DNA from: Candidatus Methanoperedens sp. BLZ2
Lineage (GTDB): Archaea; Halobacteriota; Methanosarcinia; Methanosarcinales; Methanoperedenaceae
Assembly (NCBI RefSeq): GCF_002487355.1
Contig: NZ_NTMG01000081.1
Span: forward strand, 1-64,000
Direction of reading: 5' to 3'
DNA: 64,000 nucleotides
Shown here: positions 5,127 through 62,912 of the stretch, one piece after another
Layout of the letters: every line of letters starts with the position of its first letter
Numbering within the stretch: position 1 is the first letter of the stretch
Position numbers and translations under genes: made by a program
The notes under the pieces: generated by a model
Seen by the model: the letters and a program-made list of their open reading frames with translations, nothing else
Told to the model about the DNA's origin: nothing
Database searches by the model: none

Positions 5127-6605
5127 ATGTTCAAATTAAATACCTTCTTCTCGCGCATTATGAGCATAGGTGCAGTCCAGCGGCAGAGTATAGTGTCGCT
5201 TATCTGGCAGATTGCACTTACATTCATTGGTTTTTTAAGTACAATGTACTTCGCTCACGCTGTAGGTGCAGGTGTTCTGGGTGGATACTTCCTGTTTCTT
5301 GCATATCTTAGCATCATTTATCTGGTTACTGACGGTGGATTTGGCGGAGCTGCGATCAAACGTATCAGCGAGGGAGAAGAGCAGGATGCGTATTTCAGTG
5401 CGTTTGTTGTACTTCGCTCTGTTTTTATGACAGTGATTTTAGTTGTGCTAATTGCATTTCGCAGTTATTTTTTTGATCTTAACAATACTGGAATATTTAT
5501 CTGGCTTTTAATAGCGCTGATCGTATCACAATTTGCAGGGGCTGTTTCAGGCGGTATACAAGGCCGCGGAAAAATAGGGATCAGTGCAACTGCTGGTTTC
5601 ATAGAAAATATTTCACGCATTATTGTTCAGGTCATCGCAATTTTCCTGGGTTTTGGTGTTGCAGGCCTTATTGGTGGATTTATTGTGGGTATGTTAGCTG
5701 GACTCATAGTGCAGCTGCGTTTTTTTGACTTGCATTTTGTCCGTTTTAAGTTAAGGCACTTTAAAAGCCTTTCAAAATTTTCATTGTGGATATTTTTAAT
5801 CTCAGGTGGAATGACCGTGTTTTCAACATCAGATACGGTTATGATAGGTTACTATCTTAATAATGCGGAGGTAGGTGTGTACAGGATAGTGCTGCAGTTC
5901 ACATCACTGGCAGCATTTACAACTATAGCACTTCGTTCAACACTATATCCCAGGGTTAGCAGGTGGGGAAAAACTGGTGAAACCGGATTAATAGAAGAAT
6001 CGCTCTCGCGTGCATTTACGTACTCACTTGCTCTGGCAATACCAATGTTTGCAGGTGGGGTTTTACTGGGTGATAAACTCCTGTATTATTTTTATGGAGC
6101 GGAATTTGAGCGTGGTTACATGACAATGGTGGTATTATTTCTTGTGCAAATCGTAAATATTTTTCAATATTTTTTCACAACATATCTGACCGCACTGGAC
6201 CATCTGAAAGATCTGTTCAAGATCACTGTAGTGGCAGTTGCTGCGAACATTGCATTGAACGCAGCATTAATTCCTTTAATTGGTATTTCCGGGGCTGCGA
6301 TTGCTACACTTGTTACTATGATATTTAATGCAATTCTGGCAATGTGGGTATTGTCAAAGATGCTAACGGTCAGAGCGGAGTCCGGGAGTTTGATGAATAT
6401 TTTAAAGGCATCTGTCGGGATGTCGCTGTCTGTGGGGGTGTATCGAATATTGGTGCCGATATCGAATGTGTGGCTCGTACTGGTTCCGGTTGTGCTGGGT
6501 GCTATAGTGTATGGGGTTTTGGTGTTGAAGTTTGATAGGAAGATTTATGAAGAGTTGAAGGAAATAATGACGCAGATGAATGTGGCATGGCCTAAATGGA
6601 TATGA
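5127..6605 (+). CDS. Wzx/RfbX-type polysaccharide flippase
   Basis: A 492-residue integral membrane protein with about 12-14 hydrophobic segments spread over its whole length. The N-terminal IWQIALTFIGFLSTMYFAHAVG region and the later FTTYLTALDHLKDLFKITVVA region are typical of the MOP exporter superfamily (O-antigen translocase RfbX/Wzx). Its role would be moving lipid-linked oligosaccharide across the membrane to the side where AglB works. It is the only flippase in the window. Confidence 0.88.
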   Translation: MFKLNTFFSRIMSIGAVQRQSIVSLIWQIALTFIGFLSTMYFAHAVGAGVLGGYFLFLAYLSIIYLVTDGGFGGAAIKRISEGEEQDAYFSAFVVLRSVFMTVILVVLIAFRSYFFDLNNTGIFIWLLIALIVSQFAGAVSGGIQGRGKIGISATAGFIENISRIIVQVIAIFLGFGVAGLIGGFIVGMLAGLIVQLRFFDLHFVRFKLRHFKSLSKFSLWIFLISGGMTVFSTSDTVMIGYYLNNAEVGVYRIVLQFTSLAAFTTIALRSTLYPRVSRWGKTGETGLIEESLSRAFTYSLALAIPMFAGGVLLGDKLLYYFYGAEFERGYMTMVVLFLVQIVNIFQYFFTTYLTALDHLKDLFKITVVAVAANIALNAALIPLIGISGAAIATLVTMIFNAILAMWVLSKMLTVRAESGSLMNILKASVGMSLSVGVYRILVPISNVWLVLVPVVLGAIVYGVLVLKFDRKIYEELKEIMTQMNVAWPKWI

Positions 6606-6633
6606 TTAAAAACCAGAATATAGGTGATAAAAT

Positions 6634-7278
6634 ATGAAGATTTTTATAGATACTGCAAATATTGAAGAAATAAACACGGCTAATGAATGGGGAGTTGTTG
6701 ATGGCGTAACTACCAATCCGACACTGGTTGCAAAGGAGGGAAAGGATTTGAGGGCGCTAATAAATGAGATTCTTGGTATAGTTGATGGCCCCATCAGCGT
6801 TGAAGTAATAAGTACTGATTCAGAAGGAATGATTAAAGAAGCGCTTGAGATGTCTAACTGGTCGGAAAATATCGTGGTTAAAATACCAATGATCCCGGAG
6901 GGATTAAAGGCTGTTAAGATATTGAATGAGAATGATGTTAAGACCAATGTAACGCTGGTTTTTTCAGTAAATCAGGCACTCCTGGCTGCCAAAGCGGGAG
7001 CTACTTATGTTAGCCCTTTTATAGGAAGACTGGACGATATCGGACATGATGGTATGCAAATAATACATGATCTGATGCAGATATATAATTTATATGATTT
7101 TAAAACTGAGATTATCGTAGCGAGCATCAGACATCCTTTACACGTCATAGAATCAGCTAAAGCCGGTGCACATGTGGCTACTATTCCATTTGGAGTCATT
7201 GAAAAGATGTTCAAGCATCCATTAACCGATATTGGATTGGAAAAGTTTTTAAAGGATTGGGAAAAGTCGAAAAAATGA
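6634..7278 (+). CDS. tal: Transaldolase (TalC/FSA family)
   Basis: A 214-residue TIM-barrel aldolase of the small transaldolase / fructose-6-phosphate aldolase family. N-terminal [13 protein letters not shown] and [11 protein letters not shown] are diagnostic; the Schiff-base lysine is Lys83 in ENIVVKIPM. At the position where fructose-6-phosphate aldolases carry tyrosine (E. coli FSA Tyr131), this protein has Phe129 in YVSPFIGRL, as true transaldolases do (TalB Phe178). I therefore call transaldolase. It overlaps gmhB by an ATGA junction, so its product, sedoheptulose 7-phosphate, is probably meant for the heptose pathway encoded next door. Confidence 0.88.
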
Positions 7279-7835
7279 AGAAAGCAGTATTTCTTGATAG
7301 AGATGGCGTGCTAACACAAGAACCACCATATTATGCACATAAAGTAGATGAACTTGAATTTATTCCGCGATCTCCGGATGCCATAAGGATATTAAATAAA
7401 AACAATTACGCAGTTATTATTGTTTCGAATCAGTCGGGCATTGCCCGTGGATATTACCCGGAAGAAGATACAGCTATATTTAATAAGGCAATGGAAAAAA
7501 AACTGGCTGAAACTGGATCTCATATAGACACAATTTATTATTGCCCTCACCATCCGGAAGCAAAAATAGAAAGATACCGGGTAAATTGCGATTGCAGGAA
7601 ACCCAGGCCAGGAATGTTGAAAAGAGCGGAAAAAGAATTGAATATAGATTTGAAACAATCTTTTATGGTTGGGGATAGGATGAGTGACATAGAAGCGGGG
7701 AAAAGAGCGGAATGTAAAACTATATTGGTGAGAACCGGATACAATTCAGGGCAATCAAAAGAGAATGAAATTATTTGTGATTATGTTGCAAATGATTTAT
7801 ATAATGCTGTTGAGTATATTTTATCCCTACCGTAG
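7275..7835 (+). CDS. gmhB: D-glycero-D-manno-heptose 1,7-bisphosphate 7-phosphatase (GmhB-like)
   Basis: A 186-residue HAD phosphatase (start ATG at 7275, overlapping the tal stop; a TTG at 7257 is possible but less likely). The nucleophile motif is FLDRDGVL, followed by [10 protein letters not shown]. The GmhB-type zinc loop is visible as CPHHPEAK then [10 protein letters not shown], and [11 protein letters not shown] is the last HAD motif. It would remove the 7-phosphate of heptose 1,7-bisphosphate before nucleotide activation. Histidinol-phosphatase domains look similar, but the neighbours support heptose. Confidence 0.88.
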
Positions 7836-7843
7836 TTAGATTT

Positions 7844-8803
7844 ATGGCAAGACCTCCTTCGTTTAATAGAGCAAATATAAAGATAAAATCTTTATCTGAT
7901 AGGCAGCATGATTTACAAATTTCAACGATAAGTGAATTGGATCCCACTAAAAATGATATAGATGAAAAATTTGAAAAGATTGCAGGGCGCATAGTTAGTG
8001 CCAAACACAACCGATCCTCTGCAATCTTAATGATGGGGGGACATGTTATTCGGGCAGGTGTTCAAAAATATCTGATCGACCTGATGGAAAAAGGCTTTAT
8101 ATCATGTCTGGCTATGAATGGTGCCGGGATGATCCATGATTATGAATTTGCACTTATCGGTGCAACGACTGAAAGCGTAGCCAGATATATACAGGACGGA
8201 CAATTCGGGTTGTGGAAAGAAACAGGACAAATTAATGATTATATAAATGAAGGCTATAAAAAAGGTATTGGAATGGGGGAAGCCGTTGGAAGAGCCATAT
8301 TTGAAGGGGATTTTCCATATAAGGACATCAGCTTGCTGGCTGCAGGTTACAGGTTAGGAATACCCGTTACGGTACATGTAGGGATAGGTTATGATATCAT
8401 CCATGAACACCCGAATTGCGATGGAGCAGCTACTGGAGCAACTTCATATCGTGATTTTTTATATTTCGCAAAAATTGTAGAAAATTTAGAAGGTGGAGTA
8501 GTTATGAATTTTGGCAGTGCTGTTATGTCTCCTGAGGTTTTTTTAAAAGCCCTGAGTATGGCAAGAAATGTTGCAATACAGCATGGAAGATCTATTAAGC
8601 AGTTCACGACGCTGGTCTGTGATCTTCATGATCTTCCTGAAAGATTCGATAAGGAACCCGGCAAAGATAATCCTTCTTACTATTTCAGGCCATGGAAAAC
8701 CTTGCTTGTCAGGACAGTAGCAGATGGTGGAGAGAGTTTATATATAAAAGGTAAACATGAAGTTACTATTCCAGCACTCTGGAGGGCAATAAACAAAATA
8801 TGA
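7844..8803 (+). CDS. Deoxyhypusine-synthase-like protein of heptose loci
   Basis: A 319-residue protein that I match weakly to the deoxyhypusine synthase fold: SSAILMMGGHVIRAGVQKYL followed by an AMNGAGMIHDYEFALIG segment resembles the NAD-binding region of that family, and a conserved ADGGESLYIKG lies near the C-terminus. Related genes annotated as deoxyhypusine synthase occur in heptose clusters of some bacteria (from memory, Geobacter). The gene ends in an ATGA overlap with the next nucleotidyltransferase, so a role in sugar metabolism is likelier than translation-factor modification. The reaction is unknown. Confidence 0.5.
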   Translation: MARPPSFNRANIKIKSLSDRQHDLQISTISELDPTKNDIDEKFEKIAGRIVSAKHNRSSAILMMGGHVIRAGVQKYLIDLMEKGFISCLAMNGAGMIHDYEFALIGATTESVARYIQDGQFGLWKETGQINDYINEGYKKGIGMGEAVGRAIFEGDFPYKDISLLAAGYRLGIPVTVHVGIGYDIIHEHPNCDGAATGATSYRDFLYFAKIVENLEGGVVMNFGSAVMSPEVFLKALSMARNVAIQHGRSIKQFTTLVCDLHDLPERFDKEPGKDNPSYYFRPWKTLLVRTVADGGESLYIKGKHEVTIPALWRAINKI

Positions 8804-9273
8804 AGATACTTGATATGGAGGACCTGGCTAAAAAAATCCGGACTTTAAAATCCAGTGGGAGAAAAATAGTTCATTGTCATGGATGTTTTGACCTCATGCA
8901 TATAGGTCATATTAAATATTTTCAGGCATCTAAGAAAATGGGTGATATTCTTGTAGTTACCCTCACTCCTGATATCTATGTTGATAAAGGGCCTGGCAGA
9001 CCAGTCTTTAACCAGGATCTTAGAGCAGAATCGATAGCTGCATTGGAATGTGTAGATTATGTTGCCATCAATAAATGGCCGACCGCGGAAGAAACATTGA
9101 GACTTTTGGGACCTGATATTTACGTTAAAGGACAGGAATTTGAAAAACTGGAAGATAAAACTGGAAAAATTCAAAAGGAATATGAAGTAATAAAAGAAAT
9201 TGGTGCAACAATAAGATTCACCCAGGAGATAGTTTTCTCATCAACGAAACTAATAAACGATTACTTAAAATAA
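8800..9273 (+). CDS. D-glycero-D-manno-heptose 1-phosphate nucleotidyltransferase (HldC / HldE C-domain type)
   Basis: A 157-residue cytidylyltransferase-like enzyme. The nucleotide-binding motif HIGH is intact at residues 34-37 (FDLMHIGHIKYF), and GRPVFNQDLRAESIAAL and PDIYVKGQEFE are typical of the HldE adenylyltransferase domain. It would transfer a nucleotide to heptose 1-phosphate, giving ADP-heptose if it follows the E. coli enzyme, although the nucleotide cannot be read from sequence. It starts inside the preceding gene's stop codon. Confidence 0.82.
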   Translation: MKILDMEDLAKKIRTLKSSGRKIVHCHGCFDLMHIGHIKYFQASKKMGDILVVTLTPDIYVDKGPGRPVFNQDLRAESIAALECVDYVAINKWPTAEETLRLLGPDIYVKGQEFEKLEDKTGKIQKEYEVIKEIGATIRFTQEIVFSSTKLINDYLK

Positions 9274-9335
9274 TCTTTGAGTTCTAAAAATGAAAACATT
9301 CAAATTAAATCACCATAAATATAAGTTGTAATTAA

Positions 9336-10862
9336 ATGACCAAACATAATAAGGTATTATTCTTAAACGAACTCATCTCGAAAGTGGAGAGCCTGAAGAA
9401 AGAGGGGAAAACCGTTGTCCAGAGCCATGGCATTTTTGACCTCATTCATCCTGGTATCATTAAACATCTTAATGAAGCAAAAGAGCAGGGAGATATTCTC
9501 ATAGTCACGGTTATCAAAGATAAGGATGTTAGGCGAGGGGCAGGGAGACCGATTTTCCCTGAAAATTTCCGGTTAGAAACTGTTGCTTCTTTAGAGCAGG
9601 TAGATTATGTCTGTCTTGTAGATGATGAAATGCCATTTGATTGTATAAGACATATCAAACCAGATATTTTTGCAAAAGGTCGTGCGTACAAAGAACTTGG
9701 TACCAAAATTTATGATTCAATATTTAAGGAACAAAAAGATTTTTATTTTGAAAAAAGCAAAATTTATGAAACAAGAGGTTTTTCTTTTAGTTCATCGCAA
9801 ATAATTAATGATTTTTTAGATATATATCCGGATGAAACAAAGGGATATTTGAAAGATTTCTCCAGCAAATATAGTTTTAATGAGATTGTTGAAAAACTAA
9901 ATCAGCTAAAAAAATTAAAAGTTCTCATTATTGGCGAAGGGATTATTGATGAATATCACTATTGCGAATCTATGGGAAGGTCTGCAAAATCACCCCTTAT
10001 CGTAAATAGATATATTAATCATGAAGTTTTTGCAGGAGGAGCATTTATAATAGCAAATAATCTTGCCGGGTTATGTGATAATGTCCAGTTGGTGACTTTG
10101 TTGGGGGAGGGGAATTCAAGAGAAGAGTTCATTATTAACAATCTTAAACCAAACATTACTACAAAATTCTTTTATAGGACTGATGCTCCCACCATCTGTA
10201 AAAAAAGATACATCAACCAGTATCTAAACCAGAAATTATTTGAAATTAATTATCTTGATAATAATTATATTGACGATGATTGTGAATCTAATGTTATTAA
10301 TTATCTAAGAACGAACTTATCTGGATATGATCTTGTGTTGGTTTCTGATTTTGGACATGGTTTCATTACGAATAAAATAATTGAGGTCATTGGCTCACTT
10401 TCAAAAATGCTTGCGGTTAATACACAAACAAATTCAGCTAATGTAGGTTATAATATGATAACAAAATACCGGGACCCAAATTTTGTGTGTCTCGATGAAC
10501 CTGAAGCAAGGCTTGCGACTCAGGATAGATTTGGCACCATAGATGATATTGCTATAAAATTATTAAGAACATTAAATGCTGATTGCCTTATCATAACGCT
10601 GGGTAAAAAGGGATCAATAGGTATTAATAGAGATGGTATAATAAAAAGAACGCCGATATTTTCAACCAGGGTCATAGATACAGTGGGGGCAGGAGATGCC
10701 TTTTTTGCCTTTGCTGCACCATGTTTTGCAAAGGGGTTGCCTTTAGATTTTATTTCCTTTATAGGAAATACTGTGGGGGCATTAAAAGTTCAGATAACAG
10801 GTAATAAAAAAGCTGTTGAAAAATATGAGTTATTAGAATTTATTAATACCATGATGAAGTGA
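9336..10862 (+). CDS. Fused nucleotidyltransferase-like (N) and PfkB sugar kinase (C) protein, HldE domains in reverse order
   Basis: A 508-residue protein. Residues ~1-165 are a second HldE-type nucleotidyltransferase domain, but the HxGH motif reads His38-Pro-Gly-Ile41, so the second catalytic histidine is missing. Residues ~190-508 are a PfkB/ribokinase-family kinase with GEGIIDEY, a VFAGGAFIIANNLAGL substrate region and the catalytic DTVGAGDAF (Asp454). E. coli HldE has kinase first and transferase second; here the order is reversed. The kinase probably phosphorylates heptose 7-phosphate at C1. The N-domain may be structural, or use a changed mechanism, while the intact HIGH enzyme upstream does the transfer. 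Confidence 0.8.
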   Translation: MTKHNKVLFLNELISKVESLKKEGKTVVQSHGIFDLIHPGIIKHLNEAKEQGDILIVTVIKDKDVRRGAGRPIFPENFRLETVASLEQVDYVCLVDDEMPFDCIRHIKPDIFAKGRAYKELGTKIYDSIFKEQKDFYFEKSKIYETRGFSFSSSQIINDFLDIYPDETKGYLKDFSSKYSFNEIVEKLNQLKKLKVLIIGEGIIDEYHYCESMGRSAKSPLIVNRYINHEVFAGGAFIIANNLAGLCDNVQLVTLLGEGNSREEFIINNLKPNITTKFFYRTDAPTICKKRYINQYLNQKLFEINYLDNNYIDDDCESNVINYLRTNLSGYDLVLVSDFGHGFITNKIIEVIGSLSKMLAVNTQTNSANVGYNMITKYRDPNFVCLDEPEARLATQDRFGTIDDIAIKLLRTLNADCLIITLGKKGSIGINRDGIIKRTPIFSTRVIDTVGAGDAFFAFAAPCFAKGLPLDFISFIGNTVGALKVQITGNKKAVEKYELLEFINTMMK

Positions 10863-56701: not shown

Positions 56702-57031
56702 ATGGAAGATGGTGTGAAAACAAGGTTATTAAAATTTCTTGTAAGGGATAAAGTAGGCATAAGGAAATCTCTTCTAAAACTGTTCTTGCAAACCAGGAAT
56801 TATACAACCTGTGAAGTTTATGATTATCTCAAAAAACAGGGATTTGAAGTTAATTACAGGGGTGTCTCTGCTATGGTCGGGCAAATGCATACAAGGCTTG
56901 GAATATTACGTATTTATTTGAAAAGGGAACATCGGTGCTATTCCCTCAAAGAAAGCCACAGGGACATTGTAAAAATGATTTTAACAACTCCAACCGGATT
57001 TCCCGGAAAATCACTACATTCTATCCCTTGA
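56702..57031 (+). CDS. DUF2551 winged-helix-like protein
   Basis: A 109-residue protein that matches the archaeal DUF2551 group: LLKFLVRDKVGIRKSLLKLF followed by YTTCEVYDYLKKQGFEVNY and a basic REHRCYSLKE. The pattern suggests a winged-helix DNA-binding fold. It ends 26 bases before the convergent radB stop. Target unknown. Confidence 0.72.
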   Translation: MEDGVKTRLLKFLVRDKVGIRKSLLKLFLQTRNYTTCEVYDYLKKQGFEVNYRGVSAMVGQMHTRLGILRIYLKREHRCYSLKESHRDIVKMILTTPTGFPGKSLHSIP

Positions 57032-57057
57032 TTTTTTAACTGGATTTCATCAGACTG

Positions 57058-57750
57058 CTATTTCACGCCTTTATCGGTCAGCATGAATTTACAAAAAGCT
57101 TCTTCGCTTTTTGACCTGTGTTTACGCAAAGTTGCTCTTCGTTTTGAAGGTCCGATCTTATCTAATAAAATAATCGTTTTTGAAAGATGTTCAAATGCAG
57201 TCCCCCCCACAGGGCATAGTTCTCCTGTTGTCACATCTTTATAGACCTGGTTTGTGATCACGACTGCTACGCCGTATTTTCTTGCGATTCCGTGAAGTAT
57301 TCCTATCTGGTTCACAAGTTCACGCCTTATTGCCACGTTCTCTTCACCCGTATCATCCTGCGTGAGCCCCAGCCTGTAAAAAAGGGCTGCAGAGTCAAGA
57401 ATTATCAAACCGATCTTCTCATTCATGAGCTTCTCTATGTCGGTAATTGCTGAATACTGCTGCTCAAAGCTCATGGGTTCGTATATGATTATCTCTCCAG
57501 CGATTTTTTTCGCATCCTCGCCAGCTATCTGTTTGAACCGCTCGGCTGAGAAGCCTTCGGTATCTATGAATATGACTTTTTTTCCGCTCCTGACGCATTC
57601 TACTGTTAGCTGTATGCAGATATTGGTCTTTCCTGTGCCTGAGCCCCCATAGATCTGTGTGACGATCCCGGTTTCAAAACCGCCGCCCAGCATTTCATCA
57701 AGGGGTGCGCATCCGCTTGGAATCGACTCAGGTTTTTTTATGCTCCTCAC
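57058..57750 (-). CDS. radB: DNA repair and recombination protein RadB
   Basis: A 230-residue RecA-family ATPase, shorter than RadA and lacking its N-terminal domain. Walker A is GGSGTGKT at residues 35-42; Walker B is LIILDSAALF; VVITNQVY is the L2-like stretch. RadB assists RadA in euryarchaea. The start is GTG, overlapping the stop of the upstream CooC-like gene (GTGA). Confidence 0.93.
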   Translation of the reverse strand: MRSIKKPESIPSGCAPLDEMLGGGFETGIVTQIYGGSGTGKTNICIQLTVECVRSGKKVIFIDTEGFSAERFKQIAGEDAKKIAGEIIIYEPMSFEQQYSAITDIEKLMNEKIGLIILDSAALFYRLGLTQDDTGEENVAIRRELVNQIGILHGIARKYGVAVVITNQVYKDVTTGELCPVGGTAFEHLSKTIILLDKIGPSKRRATLRKHRSKSEEAFCKFMLTDKGVK

Positions 57751-58511
57751 TCCATTTTATTAGATAATTTTTCAAAGATCGTTATTATCGAAGAAATTGC
57801 TGTGCCATTTCTTTCGATCGGCGAAATGTTATCAAGGTCAGCCCTGATAAGATCATTATCAAAGGGGATCGAACCAATAACAGGTAAATCAAAGACTTTT
57901 AATTTTTCTTCGATATCCAGCACTTCAACTTCATTACCCGCCTTATTTATGACAATGCCGAATTTGTCTATCCCGATCTGGCGCCCGAGTTCCGCAATCC
58001 TCCCTGCTGTTTCAATTGACCGTGTGCCGGGCTCCACGACAATTATCATATAGTCTATTCCTTTTGTAGTGCCGCGCCCCAGGTGCTCTACACCTGCTTC
58101 CATATCAAGTATCACGACGCTGTTCAATTTAAGGATTACATGGCGCATAAGGGCCTTAAGGAATGAGCTTGCAGGACACATGCATCCGCTGCCGCCTCTT
58201 TCAACTGTACCCATTACCAGCAATTTCACATTATCAGGCCCTGTTACCCCGAATTTATCGACAATATCATCCACTTTTGGGTTCAGCTTGAAAACTCCTG
58301 CAGGGCCGCCAGCTCTTTCATCGATCAATTCTTTATATTCTGTAAGGGGTCTTGGCGGATTTTTTATTCCAAGCGCGGAGGCAAGGTTCATGCTGGGATC
58401 TGCGTCTATTGCAAGAACATCGTATCCTTTTCTTGCAAAAAGCCGCGCCAGTGTGCCTGAAAGCGTGGTCTTTCCCACTCCACCTTTACCCGATATTGCT
58501 ATTTTGATCAT
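57747..58511 (-). CDS. CooC-like nickel/CO-dehydrogenase maturation ATPase (MinD family)
   Basis: A 254-residue P-loop ATPase with deviant Walker A GKGGVGKTT and the two close cysteines GSGCMCPASS that dimeric CooC uses to bind nickel. VVILDMEAGVEHLGRGT is the switch II region characteristic of CooC. It would load Ni into carbon monoxide dehydrogenase/acetyl-CoA synthase. No CODH genes are in the window; it is coupled to radB and the phosphoesterase by overlaps. Confidence 0.87.
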   Translation of the reverse strand: MIKIAISGKGGVGKTTLSGTLARLFARKGYDVLAIDADPSMNLASALGIKNPPRPLTEYKELIDERAGGPAGVFKLNPKVDDIVDKFGVTGPDNVKLLVMGTVERGGSGCMCPASSFLKALMRHVILKLNSVVILDMEAGVEHLGRGTTKGIDYMIIVVEPGTRSIETAGRIAELGRQIGIDKFGIVINKAGNEVEVLDIEEKLKVFDLPVIGSIPFDNDLIRADLDNISPIERNGTAISSIITIFEKLSNKME

Positions 58512-59155
58512 TATGCATCAATTAATTCTATATTTATCTTTATATTTATTTTCTCATCTATCGTAATTACAGCCCCCTGTCCCTTTGATGCCATGCCCGG
58601 ATTCACTACCTGGGTACTATTAACACGTACAATTCCCCTCGCTTCATGGATATGCCCGCAAACGATGAGGTCAAATCTTTTCAGATATCTTTCAAGCGCA
58701 GCACTTCCGACGTTTCCATGCGGTAATTTGTCTGTAGTATTTTTCGGGGGGGCATGGGATAATAAAATCAGTCTTCCTTTTGATCTGCTCAATAATGTTC
58801 CTACATATTCACCGATCTTTTTTTCCGATAATTCAAATGGTGTGTTAAAAGGAGTTGGGTTTGAGCCGCCAAGCCCGATAAATGTCAAATCTCCAATTGT
58901 ATGGGAAGAATTATGCAGATTAATGGTATTTTCATTCTCATCAAGAATCTTGAGCAATGAGGGGTTATCACAATTTCCAGGCACTGCAAGTACAGGAACC
59001 TTGAACATTCCCAGTACCTCAAGCGCCTTTTCATCAGGCCCGAAATCGGTTATATCGCCTGCTATCAGGACAGCATCAATATCGCCTGCCTTATCAAGAA
59101 TAGATCCTACATGTGAATAATCGCCGTGAAGGTCCGATAAAGCGAGCAGTTTCAT
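58511..59155 (-). CDS. Metallophosphoesterase (COG2129/MJ0936 type)
   Basis: A 214-residue calcineurin-like phosphoesterase. Metal motifs in order: SDLHGD, GDITDFG, GNCDN, SHAPP and GHIHEARG, all intact. Short archaeal members hydrolyse phosphodiesters in vitro; the biological substrate is unknown. First gene of the operon with the CooC-like gene and radB (one-base overlap). Confidence 0.88.
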   Translation of the reverse strand: MKLLALSDLHGDYSHVGSILDKAGDIDAVLIAGDITDFGPDEKALEVLGMFKVPVLAVPGNCDNPSLLKILDENENTINLHNSSHTIGDLTFIGLGGSNPTPFNTPFELSEKKIGEYVGTLLSRSKGRLILLSHAPPKNTTDKLPHGNVGSAALERYLKRFDLIVCGHIHEARGIVRVNSTQVVNPGMASKGQGAVITIDEKINIKINIELIDA

Positions 59156-59342
59156 ATCACGTCATATTTAGTTTAATGTTTATAATGGTAATGTCAGTAT
59201 GAGCTTTTCACCTATAATCGCTTCAATACTCAATGGATAATATTATATACTATTAAACATCTAATAATATTATCATAATCTTAGAAAATTACAAAATTTA
59301 AAAATCATAAAATTATTTGATAATAAAATGAGATGATTATAA

Positions 59343-59504
59343 ATGGCTTCAATATACGTCGGCGAAGATGATAAAAAATACTTGGAGAAACTAAGAAAGG
59401 AATCACCTGCAGAGAAGATACCTAATATGAAAGAAATTGTTCATTATTTGATAAATTTTACCAAAAAACACGAAAAAGAGTTTTTGTTAACCATGAAGGA
59501 GTAA
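59343..59504 (+). CDS. Small basic/acidic protein, 53 residues
   Basis: ATG at 59343 is preceded by GAGATGAT at good distance. The frame encodes MASIYVGEDDKKYLEKLRKE and ends at TAA 59502-59504. A short strand followed by two helices is suggested, as in ribbon-helix-helix proteins, but the match is only by shape. It could regulate the block that follows. Confidence 0.5.
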   Translation: MASIYVGEDDKKYLEKLRKESPAEKIPNMKEIVHYLINFTKKHEKEFLLTMKE

Positions 59505-59552
59505 TGAAAAGAATTATAAACTTAAATATCCTCAAGACGGCAAGGTGAGTTT

Positions 59553-59981
59553 ACGACCGAGAACGAATTGAAACAACTTAAAGAAGACTTTGTAAAAATT
59601 TCTGAGGATTTATTAAGTGACGATAGAAGTATTCGTTCAGAAAGCTTAATGGCTTTAAGGTCTAAAATTCTTAACTTAGAAGTTTTTGAAATAGCAACTA
59701 AATATAAAAGTGATAGTATGTTGCCAATTTTGTACTTATTGAAAAAATTAATAAATGATCTGTACATAAATCTGGGAACTGATTCCTCGTGTGATTTCCC
59801 AATAACAAATCTTGCAAATGAATATTGTGAGAACTTAGGAAATTTCATTAAGATATCATTTAAAGGTGATAAAGATTCATGCAGATATTTATTTGAAACA
59901 ATAAATCAATATTATATCAATTTATTATTAGTAGAGAATTCAGGTGAATTTTGTGGCTCCGCAATCAATGAAACAAATTAA
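59553..59981 (+). CDS. Helical protein of unknown function, start uncertain
   Basis: About 137-142 residues, almost entirely helical and charged (KISEDLLSDDRSIRSESLMA), with no family that I know. The first usual start is TTG 59568, but AAGGTGAG at 59542-59549 points to ACG at 59553, seven bases after GG, in the same frame. The 3' end overlaps the PRTase-like gene. It is AT-rich like the following genes. Confidence 0.5.
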   Translation, partial: TTENELKQLKEDFVKISEDLLSDDRSIRSESLMALRSKILNLEVFEIATKYKSDSMLPILYLLKKLINDLYINLGTDSSCDFPITNLANEYCENLGNFIKISFKGDKDSCRYLFETINQYYINLLLVENSGEFCGSAINETN

Positions 59982-60579
59982 TATCATAAATGAAAGATCA
60001 AATGAGTATTTTAAGAGTCCTGGTAGTGTTAAGCAATGCATCAAAGCAAAAAGAGAAGGTCGTACAAGTACACATTACATAGATTTTGATAATATAACAA
60101 TTGACCCTTATCAAACAGAAGATATAGTTTATTTATACAGTTATTATATTAATGAAATTGTTAAACAAAATTCTGTCGATTTTTTAGTTTTCATCGACAA
60201 AGCAGATGGAGGAACAGTAGGCGCGATTAAAATATCTGGTGCGATCTCTATGCAAACTAAAATACCTACTACCATTTTAAGAATGGGAAAAGAACGGCCC
60301 AGTGAAAAATTAAAGCTTCCTTATGAAAATAGCTATCGAAATGGTCTTAAATACATTTTAATTACCGATCATGTTTCAGGTGGACAAGAAGTTTTGAATG
60401 CAATCAAAGCAATTAAAGAAAATGGTGGAATAGTTACTGATGTGGTAACTTATACATCAGAAGATACTTTAAACGTGAAGAATATAGAAGATATTGGAGT
60501 TCATTTTCATACTATTAAGATGATTCCTTTAGATCTTAATAGAGTTGGAATTTCAATTTCAAAAGCTATCACTGCTTAA
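59953..60579 (+). CDS. Orotate-phosphoribosyltransferase-like protein
   Basis: About 208 residues from GTG 59953 (AGGTGA eight to twelve bases upstream). A type I PRTase fold is suggested by FLVFIDKADGGTVGAI and the PRPP-loop-like strand ILITDHVSGGQEVLNAIKAI, where the usual two acidic residues read Asp-His. A pyrF-like gene lies 700 bases downstream, supporting a pyrimidine-type substrate. It is diverged from ordinary PyrE, and the substrate may not be orotate. Confidence 0.65.
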   Translation: MAPQSMKQINIINERSNEYFKSPGSVKQCIKAKREGRTSTHYIDFDNITIDPYQTEDIVYLYSYYINEIVKQNSVDFLVFIDKADGGTVGAIKISGAISMQTKIPTTILRMGKERPSEKLKLPYENSYRNGLKYILITDHVSGGQEVLNAIKAIKENGGIVTDVVTYTSEDTLNVKNIEDIGVHFHTIKMIPLDLNRVGISISKAITA

Positions 60580-60600
60580 TTAAAAAGTGGAGAATACTTT

Positions 60601-61292
60601 TTGACTTATCAGATAATTACCAAATGGACAGTTAAAATTACCTCGGATAATAAAGGTGAACATACAATTGATATTAATTTCGTTAATCCCTTTGAGATTA
60701 ATCCAATAGCAGCTAATTATTTATATATAGATTTAAATAAAATTGATATAGATATAAAATCTGCAAAATTGTTTTTCCCAGAAGATTTAGGGTTGACCCT
60801 TGAAAATGGCAATGATTTTATGGAAAATAGCCATATAAAATTAGATTTTGTAAAATTTAAGAGTAAATACAAGTTTGACCTTCTTAGCAGGAACTCATTC
60901 GACTTAAAAATTCAATTTTTACAATACCCCATAATTAAAGAAAATCAGGGCATGAATGATATAAAAATCGATTTTATCACTCGTCTAAAATCAACAAAAT
61001 CACAATTAATATATTTTTTGCCTCAAAAAATAGTTTAATTAAATTATTTTATCAAAAAATTCGAAAAAATACGAGATATCCTTATGAGATAATTCCATAC
61101 GCTGATACGCCAACTATTGACATAAATGATAAAGGAAATGTGAAAATTATTTATTCTTATCAAGGTGAAATTAATGGCCCATTTGGATTTATGTTCAAAG
61201 AAATTAATCCAAATACAACGATTTATAGTTTTGTTTCGGGCATTGCGATTGGACTAATCGCTAATTACCTATATAATATAATATGGGGGAGA
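60601..61292 (+). pseudogene. Membrane-anchored beta-rich protein split by a frameshift at A6
   Basis: The first frame (TTG 60601 to stop 61038, 145 residues) encodes a beta-rich domain. At the A6 run 61025-61030 a -1 shift opens a second frame that continues without stop to TAA 61290-61292: it reads NSLIKLFYQKIRKNTRY, then PYADTPTIDINDKGNV, and closes with a transmembrane helix FVSGIAIGLIANYLYNII. The joint protein would be about 230 residues, cytosolic domain plus C-terminal anchor. Mutation, sequencing error and programmed slippage all fit. Family not recognised. Confidence 0.6.
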
Positions 61293-61305
61293 TAATATTA
61301 ATTTC

Positions 61306-62055
61306 TTGAAGTTAAGGCATGGTATTATCCCGGCATGTGATGTCACAACATTAAAAGATTTAGAAAAATTAATCAAAGAAACTTATGATGTTGATGGTAT
61401 TGTAGGATTTAAAATAGGTGCTCTTCTTGGTTTAAAATATGGTTTACATAATGTTGTAAAAGTTATTATTCGATATAGCGATCTTCCAATCATTTATGAT
61501 CACCAAAAATATGGAACTGATATACCTGAGATTTGTGGTTCTGGAGTTTTAGAGGTCTGTAAAGATGCTGGTATTAATTCAATTATCATTTTTCCACAGG
61601 CAGGACCTGAAACATTAAAGGTCACTATCGAAGGTTCAAAAGATTCGAATTTAAAAGAACCAATAAGAGGTTGCAATGGTTATGGACTGACACCAATTGT
61701 AGGTGGAGATATGACGCATAAGAGATATTTAGTTAGTGATGGTGGTTTTATATCAGATGATGCACCAGAAAAAATGTATAACGATGCTGCTAAATTGGGT
61801 GTTGAATATTTTGTAATTCCTGGGACAAAAATTGATAAAATGAAAAAATATTGTAATCAACTAAAAAAACTCGTTAAATCACCAAAATTCATGTTTCCTG
61901 GAATTGGAAAAGATTATCAAGGTGGTGATATTGTTAATGCTTTTGAAGCAGTAAATCCATTCAACGGTTATGCAATTGTTGGAAGGGAACTTTACAAGTC
62001 AGATAATATTAATAATACAGCTAAAAAATTGGGTGACATTGCTTTAAGTTTTTAA
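61306..62055 (+). CDS. Orotidine-5'-phosphate-decarboxylase-like protein (PyrF family)
   Basis: A 249-residue TIM-barrel protein: LRHGIIPACDVTTLKDLEKL and IIYDHQKYGTDIPEI, which holds the D-x-K-x4-D catalytic array of OMP decarboxylases. The C-terminal FMFPGIGKDYQGGDI is the phosphate-binding part. Start TTG 61306 gives the usual N-terminus; an in-frame ATT at 61297 lies seven bases after GGGGG and is an alternative. With the PRTase-like gene it would form a two-step UMP-like route. Confidence 0.75.
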   Translation: MKLRHGIIPACDVTTLKDLEKLIKETYDVDGIVGFKIGALLGLKYGLHNVVKVIIRYSDLPIIYDHQKYGTDIPEICGSGVLEVCKDAGINSIIIFPQAGPETLKVTIEGSKDSNLKEPIRGCNGYGLTPIVGGDMTHKRYLVSDGGFISDDAPEKMYNDAAKLGVEYFVIPGTKIDKMKKYCNQLKKLVKSPKFMFPGIGKDYQGGDIVNAFEAVNPFNGYAIVGRELYKSDNINNTAKKLGDIALSF

Positions 62056-62193
62056 CCTCAACTCTGCTATTTAGGGTATATTTTATCCAAATAAATTTTT
62101 TGAAACAAAATCAAAAATCGAATATTGTCCGCAGTTTATTTTTATATATGGTTTAATTTAAAATTGAATGAGGGTTTCATCAAAACCGCACTT

Positions 62194-62227
62194 CACCTAA
62201 AGTAGCTCAAAATCAGTACTTTAGGTG
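62194..62227. terminator. Perfect 11-base inverted repeat between convergent genes
   Basis: CACCTAAAGTA (62194-62204) and TACTTTAGGTG (62217-62227) pair exactly around a 12-base loop. It lies in the 212-base gap between the converging pyrF-like and YkgJ-type genes. A smaller GGTTT/AAACC palindrome is at about 62172-62186. A terminator or a protein-binding palindrome both fit. Confidence 0.5.
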
Positions 62228-62267
62228 CAAAGCTGTCATTATGTGATTTAAAAAAAGTTGAATCAGA

Positions 62268-62900
62268 CTATTCTGAATTAGCCTGATCCAGATCAGTCAC
62301 TAACCAGTGTTCGCCTTCGCTGTCATGCACACACACATTGCCGCTGCCGCCTGGAATGAATCCATTGAACCTTTCAAGAAGAGCGATCGACTCTGTTATT
62401 TCTTTAATATATCTTTGTTTAAGAAGAGCTGCCAGCATCAGGCTCTCTTCATCATTGATATTGCCTCCAAGCCCGATGCATTCTGAAATCTCAAGCTTCC
62501 CGTCAAGAAGAAAAAACGGATATGTCCTGCATATATGCGGCCTGCATTCGTATATTTCACACTGGTTATTTTTCAGGAAAATGCAATCTCCATTTTTCTT
62601 CATGACCCATTCAAAGGTATGGATATTGCCTTTCGTATCCCTGTCCCCTGAAGGTGTTGGTATTGCAAAATCATCACGGGAAAGTCCTGTTTTTTCACAA
62701 ATGCAATTTATTTCCGACGGAAAAATCATCACAGTATTATCGCCAAATTCAGCCCTGCAGCATTGGGCGCATTTCTTACACAGGAAACCTGCTGCTTTTA
62801 TCTGGCCAGCGATCTTTTTTTCATCTATTAACAGGGCTTTATCAAGCTTACCAAGCGCTTTTTTAAGATTTGAGATTTTTCTTTGTTTTTGTGATGCCAT
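62268..62900 (-). CDS. YkgJ-family cysteine-cluster protein
   Basis: About 210 residues from ATG at 62900 (TTG 62906 possible). CKKCAQCCRAEFGDN is the diagnostic first cluster; CIFLKNNQCEIYECRPHICR then supplies the remaining cysteines, and YPFFLLDGKLEISEC follows. Members are thought to bind zinc or an iron-sulfur cluster, with unclear role. It is 12 bases downstream of the marker-9 gene and probably shares its transcript. Confidence 0.85.
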   Translation of the reverse strand: MASQKQRKISNLKKALGKLDKALLIDEKKIAGQIKAAGFLCKKCAQCCRAEFGDNTVMIFPSEINCICEKTGLSRDDFAIPTPSGDRDTKGNIHTFEWVMKKNGDCIFLKNNQCEIYECRPHICRTYPFFLLDGKLEISECIGLGGNINDEESLMLAALLKQRYIKEITESIALLERFNGFIPGGSGNVCVHDSEGEHWLVTDLDQANSE

Positions 62901-62912
62901 CTTCAAGATTTA

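Follow-up and report, generated by a model that had tools for sequence, protein, structure and literature searches.

The window that we analysed, a 64,000-nt stretch of Candidatus Methanoperedens sp. BLZ2 DNA taken at its full length, contains near its end a group of genes in which PyrE-like and PyrF-like enzymes are interleaved with proteins foreign to pyrimidine synthesis. This raises the question of whether the group supplies ordinary pyrimidine nucleotides or serves another purpose. The ORF list and its translations place all five genes on the + strand within 59343–62055: a 53-residue protein, a helical protein, a phosphoribosyltransferase (PRTase), a beta-rich protein with a transmembrane segment and an OMP decarboxylase (OMPDC)-like protein. 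The first-pass annotation had described a one-strand set in strongly AT-rich DNA, and both the ORFs and a ranking by GC content confirmed this description. The stretch that carries the genes has 28.7% GC, compared with 38.2% elsewhere in the window, and is the most AT-rich 3-kb stretch (rank 0 of 610 equal-size windows). Judged from sequence, it looks like a foreign, conserved and transferable accessory block of five genes, in which two pyrimidine-nucleotide enzymes are accompanied by a likely DNA-binding regulator and two proteins of no assigned family, one of them membrane-anchored; it may serve antiviral nucleotide chemistry.

The edges of the block are marked by breaks in the alignment to related genomes. 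In blastn comparisons with the window, the L069 alignment covers 57010–59208 and picks up again at 62267; the L070 alignment runs up to 59207 and picks up again at 62234. The left flank is a phosphoesterase gene on the − strand (58511–59155), which is conserved in 28 of the 31 genomes of the genus and in many of them adjoins the gene that forms the right flank here. The latter (62268–62906, − strand) encodes a CxxCxxCC protein, assigned from its Pfam score (PF03692, 35.5 bits) and from synteny. The closest relatives, G024 (96% protein identity), G005 and G004, have an empty site in which the CxxCxxCC gene directly follows the phosphoesterase gene, with only ∼20–110 bases between them. Since the flanks are adjacent in the closest relatives and the alignments break at the ends of the block, the block is an insertion. 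The inserted unit spans ∼3.03 kb at 59205–62236, with no strand assigned and boundaries placed to within about ±30 nt, and is absent from the nearest relatives.

Feature scans of the insert and its site revealed no tRNA, integrase or transposase, and promoter and terminator scans of the block did no better than shuffled sequence. The insertion ends on its right side in an imperfect inverted repeat (62178–62243) with an exact CACCTAAAGTA/TACTTTAGGTG stem, which may be a terminator or the end of a mobile element.

The same gap is filled differently in other relatives. In relative G019 the occupant (L074) is a fusion that joins an Mrr nuclease domain (Pfam Mrr_cat, 27 bits) to a nucleoside-deoxyribosyltransferase/TIR-like protein (PADLOC TIR effector, E 6.8e-5), and other occupants are membrane proteins (L073 and L085) and a small protein (L088). 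Because various single genes, including the TIR-like/Mrr fusion, sit in the same gap, the site is an insertion hotspot able to take defence-like cargo.

Outside this genome, the order helical protein, PRTase, beta-rich protein, OMPDC is found unchanged in two genomes of the Methanophagales (ANME-1), G146 (locus L049) and G253 (locus L048), and in no other among 393 genomes of the phylum. The cassette is thus present in 2 of 51 ANME-1 family genomes and 1 of 31 genus genomes. Alignment searches with the PRTase, beta-rich and helical proteins returned the same two genomes and the window, together with a few further weak hits, those examined lying outside such a cassette; the window's own beta gene was missed by the beta alignment because it is frameshifted (see below). 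Across 84,980 species, a pattern scan based on the aligned PRTases detected the two ANME-1 loci and no others, although its patterns are narrow and more distant cassettes could therefore escape detection. IMG/VR searches with the PRTase, helical and beta-rich proteins yielded no relatives, the cassette OMPDC matched no plasmid or phage sequence, and searches of the accessible literature uncovered no description of such a cassette. The sample accordingly comprises three known instances, two of them from MAGs.

The identical gene order in two distant archaea shows that the block is more than a chance grouping, and chance adjacency was rejected on this ground. Sporadic occurrence combined with conserved order in two distant orders argues for a transferred functional module. 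On the sequence evidence, the cassette is real, sporadic and transferred. The earlier proposal of a coherent cassette outside housekeeping metabolism therefore held: the order is kept in Methanophagales, the insertion is discrete and lies in a hotspot, and the genes of no assigned family are conserved beside the two enzymes.

The PRTase is OPRT (PyrE)-like and is encoded at 59968–60579 on the + strand, overlapping the end of the helical gene; the start may be at 59944 or 59968, giving 203–211 aa. Against TIGR00336 the window copy scored 28.7 bits and the ANME-1 copies 23.9 and 25.8 bits, all below the cut-off of 106.8. HHalign comparison with PyrE nevertheless gave a probability of 97.7 and an E-value of 2.3e-12 over 165 columns, which corresponds to full-length fold homology, and the best solved-structure matches are OPRTs. 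The window protein is 37–39% identical to the L048 and L049 copies. The PRPP loop had been read as having Asp-His in place of two acidic residues. The loop is indeed altered, but in a different way: the motif TDHVSGGQEVL aligns without gaps to the OPRT motif EDVVTSGSSVL, so that the first acid has become Thr, the second (Asp) is kept and the His falls one place further on. All three copies have T-D-H for E-D-V and so lack the two-acid (ED/DD) PRPP motif, and TDH[CV][ST][GT]G.EVL is invariant across them. A motif common to all three copies points to a specialised enzyme and not to a decaying one. The activity most consistent with these sequence features would be ribotidation of orotate, or of a close analogue, with PRPP.

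The OMPDC-like protein (61306–62055, + strand, 249 aa; PF00215 33.5 bits, cut-off 27) belongs to a DHQKYGTDIP subtype. It is 56–58% identical to homologues in Methanophagales, the only family among the 393 phylum genomes with such relatives. The catalytic D, K and D-K-D residues, the GxGxQGG phosphate loop and VGR are all retained. The phosphate site, G-x-G-x-QGG/VGR-x-IY, is present as FPGIGKDYQGGDI, which is two residues longer, and IVGRELY. The canonical D-x-K-x-x-D is missing; the protein reads D-H-Q-K-Y-G-T-D instead, with the residues kept and the spacing longer by two.

This spacing is a property of a whole PyrF clade. Its ANME-1 members adjoin pyrE (L021–L026, L035, L041 and L042), and a large phage contig from IMG/VR (L051, 252,876 bases) carries at 6597–8702 an operon of pyrE, a dihydroorotate dehydrogenase-like gene (pyrD) and a DHQK-type pyrF. 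Given the pyrE neighbours and the phage pyrE-pyrD-pyrF operon, the members of this clade are very likely real OMP decarboxylases, and the same context suggests that orotate-to-UMP-like chemistry is likely in the cassette. As enzymes linked to pyrE share the spacing, OMPDC function may be kept. The closest relatives outside the cassette (L015–L018, ANME-1 genus g63; 57–58%) lie between a gene for a complex-I-like subunit and a gene for a UbiD-type decarboxylase. The tree unites these with the cassette OMPDCs in a single clade (support 97/98), next to which lies the ANME-1 clade linked to pyrE. With DxKxxD, otherwise a fixed motif, lengthened by two residues, this group of PyrFs offers a natural test of how strictly the best-known proficient decarboxylase constrains its catalytic loop.

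The altered motifs could also reflect a module that makes a UMP analogue from an unusual carboxylated base, for use as an antimetabolite or in the modification of nucleic acids or cofactors. Such a role would fit a PRPP motif that is altered yet conserved in three copies, the changed spacing of the OMPDC loop and the UbiD-type decarboxylase that adjoins the closest non-cassette OMPDC group. We consider it unlikely: OMPDCs accompanied by pyrE and pyrD have this spacing too, so the spacing is no proof of a new substrate.

Related OMPDCs were also seen in other settings. A group of phage contigs (L052–L061) encodes an isolated OMP decarboxylase of the DHQK type next to a ∼275-aa protein that begins with MN(V/I)IGLG. 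Other ANME-1 genera have OMPDCs (L122, L123 and L124) with the sequence DAQKAGTDIP, in which the spacing is shifted in the same way. In L048 the cassette is directly followed (8721–9518) by another diverged member of the OMPdecase family (36.9 bits), and similar ∼270–290 aa proteins in other ANME-1 genomes have weak scores.

The 53-aa protein (59343–59504, + strand) was identified as an ORF and has no Pfam hit; by eye, its sequence is possibly that of a ribbon-helix-helix DNA-binding protein. At the same position L048 has a winged-helix protein (6011–6232; FaeA 27.7 bits, HTH_24 25.3 bits), and part of a winged-helix gene precedes the cassette in L049. The helical protein (59568–59981, + strand; 137 aa if a TTG start is assumed) belongs to an orphan family with homologues in L048 and L049. 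It is 31% identical to the L048 copy, with an invariant LYL.K.L..D...N..TD.S..FP. Its AlphaFold model is all-helical (pLDDT 83) and found no fold match in the PDB and viral libraries at E ≤ 0.001. Neither the helical nor the beta-rich protein has a Pfam hit.

The beta-rich protein with a C-terminal transmembrane segment (60601–61295, + strand) had been annotated as a membrane-anchored protein. The gene is present, but in the window it is split by a frameshift at ∼60955–61035: it is open in one frame at 60601–61038 and in a second from ∼60955 to 61295, the latter including the transmembrane segment. A profile of the intact homologues, which have 235 and 242 aa in L048 and L049, matches the C-terminal half in the second frame, and the two parts are therefore one gene with a frameshift. 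The protein has a single C-terminal hydrophobic segment, which is the hydropathy maximum (2.2–2.4 in the intact copies), and no obvious signal sequence; it would be anchored by its tail, with its main domain in the cytosol. The structure model, made from two sequences, was too poor for use (pLDDT 42) and gave no solved-structure hit.

The frameshift suggests that the window copy is under weak selection or that the assembly contains an error, and with its membrane-protein gene disrupted in this way, the cassette may be damaged in this genome. Taken with the single occurrence in the genus, this might indicate a decaying, non-functional remnant whose genes lie together by chance. We regard such a remnant as improbable, given that the other frames are open, with 31–58% protein identity to the ANME-1 copies, and that the gene order is conserved across two orders.

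Elsewhere in the genome there is an intact canonical pyrF (L001, 295 bits, cut-off 208), so the OMPDC of the block does not stand alone. The ancestral pyrE is a pseudogene (L012; G000:C5:107427–107680) and is intact and high-scoring in 27 other members of the genus. Its remnant has lost 199 bp, which breaks the frame, and a further 72 bp in frame, each deletion lying between short direct repeats. Contig C63 encodes a tandem two-domain OPRT of 432 aa (G000:C63:51666–52964; L011 and L110) whose second domain scores above the pyrE cut-off and which has a counterpart in no other genome of its genus. An ordinary pair elsewhere, as raised in the first-pass annotation, was therefore found for pyrF and not for pyrE, the place of which may be taken by the tandem protein. 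With the ancestral pyrE lost and the tandem protein present, OPRT activity could come from C63, the cassette or both, and a role for either in ordinary UMP synthesis is possible. For the most part, then, the block is not the sole source of these functions, as a second pyrF exists, and the orphan genes are conserved alongside. An ordinary housekeeping pyrEF was rejected as an identity for the block on the basis of the intact pyrF elsewhere, the orphan partners and the location in an island.

The main rival explanation retains a metabolic purpose: a backup or alternative operon for UMP synthesis or orotate salvage, in which an acquired pyrE-pyrF pair at the membrane, perhaps near a route of orotate uptake, replaces lost host functions. 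We hold this to be a real possibility, if short of an even chance. The deletions in the ancestral pyrE speak for it, since after this loss a second OPRT could have been selected for its role in metabolism. So do the genuine PyrF context of the OMPDC relatives, the common displacement of pyrE and pyrF in ANME-1 and the core OPRT carried by the Borg elements of Methanoperedens (PMC11208441). Against it stand the C63 domain above the pyrE cut-off and the intact canonical pyrF, the other pyrE and pyrF candidates held by both ANME-1 cassette hosts, the PRTase score far under the pyrE cut-off and the retention of the orphan beta-rich and helical genes.

Compared with housekeeping pyrE-pyrF, the cassette shares both enzyme folds, the key OMPDC residues, full-length OPRT alignment and closely spaced genes. 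It differs in a PRTase that scores far below PyrE cut-offs and whose PRPP motif lacks its first acidic residue, in an OMPDC that reads D-x-Q-K-x-x-x-D rather than D-x-K-x-x-D, in the interleaved orphan helical and tail-anchored genes and in being mobile and sporadic. The ANME-1 DHQK-type PyrFs beside pyrE form a sister clade with the same altered spacing; unlike the cassette enzymes, they have a housekeeping context without orphan genes and a different OPRT partner (TIGR00336 ∼70 bits).

In nucleotide-signal defence of the Pycsar/CBASS type, a mobile operon likewise encodes a nucleotide enzyme together with a small membrane protein. The cassette has PRTase/OMPDC chemistry in place of a cyclase, and no PADLOC match. 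In the Ter tellurium-resistance/phage-resistance network, PRTases and transmembrane components occur in conflict systems, a likeness to the cassette in that a PRTase and a membrane component share an accessory conflict operon (PMC7824862). Pfam searches did not find the TerB/C/D/F, TelA and HAD phosphatase families in the cassette, and the passage that describes these Ter components does not mention an OMPDC (PMC7824862).

We tentatively favour, at somewhat less than even confidence, a horizontally transferred accessory operon acting most likely in conflict with viruses or mobile elements rather than in bulk pyrimidine supply; it stands slightly ahead of the metabolic explanation. The purpose is drawn from context, namely the mobile unit, the TIR/Mrr hotspot, the TIR- and PIN-like neighbours and the Ter precedent. 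A TIR-effector-like gene is located ∼8 kb from the cassette of L049, which also has a transposase-like gene nearby, and the L048 cassette adjoins PIN-toxin-like genes. Counting against a conflict role, no PADLOC 2.0 model matches the proteins of the window or of the ANME-1 cassettes, and the instances number only three. In the proposed scheme, the operon is probably under the control of the small regulator, which is a winged-helix protein in ANME-1 and may be of the ribbon-helix-helix type here. The OPRT-like enzyme would use PRPP to ribotidate a carboxylated pyrimidine base (orotate or one of its close analogues), and its product would then be decarboxylated by the OMPDC-like enzyme, giving a two-step reaction of the PyrE-PyrF type. 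The tail-anchored beta protein would tether the activity to the membrane or respond to it there, the helical protein may be an adaptor or sensor, and a local nucleotide product or signal would act against viruses or mobile elements. The stronger proposal, of a previously undescribed archaeal nucleotide-based antiviral or conflict system whose product is sensed or executed by the tail-anchored effector with the helical adaptor, is less likely than not. The packaging of a PyrE/PyrF pair with orphan membrane and helical proteins on a transferable island would mean that enzymes of de novo pyrimidine synthesis have been recruited into a mobile accessory system.

A second conserved operon was observed in ANME-1, with the order pyrF, pyrE and orphan genes (L112, L115, L116, L119 and L120, in G253, G248, G307, G356 and G258, respectively). 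One orphan gene encodes a ∼420–560 aa protein with no Pfam hit and, by eye, HD-hydrolase-like motifs; the other, which is convergent in L119, encodes a ∼330–425 aa PRTase-like protein with the motif FDDAIDDGEN. This operon is another pairing of pyrE and pyrF with orphan nucleotide-type proteins.
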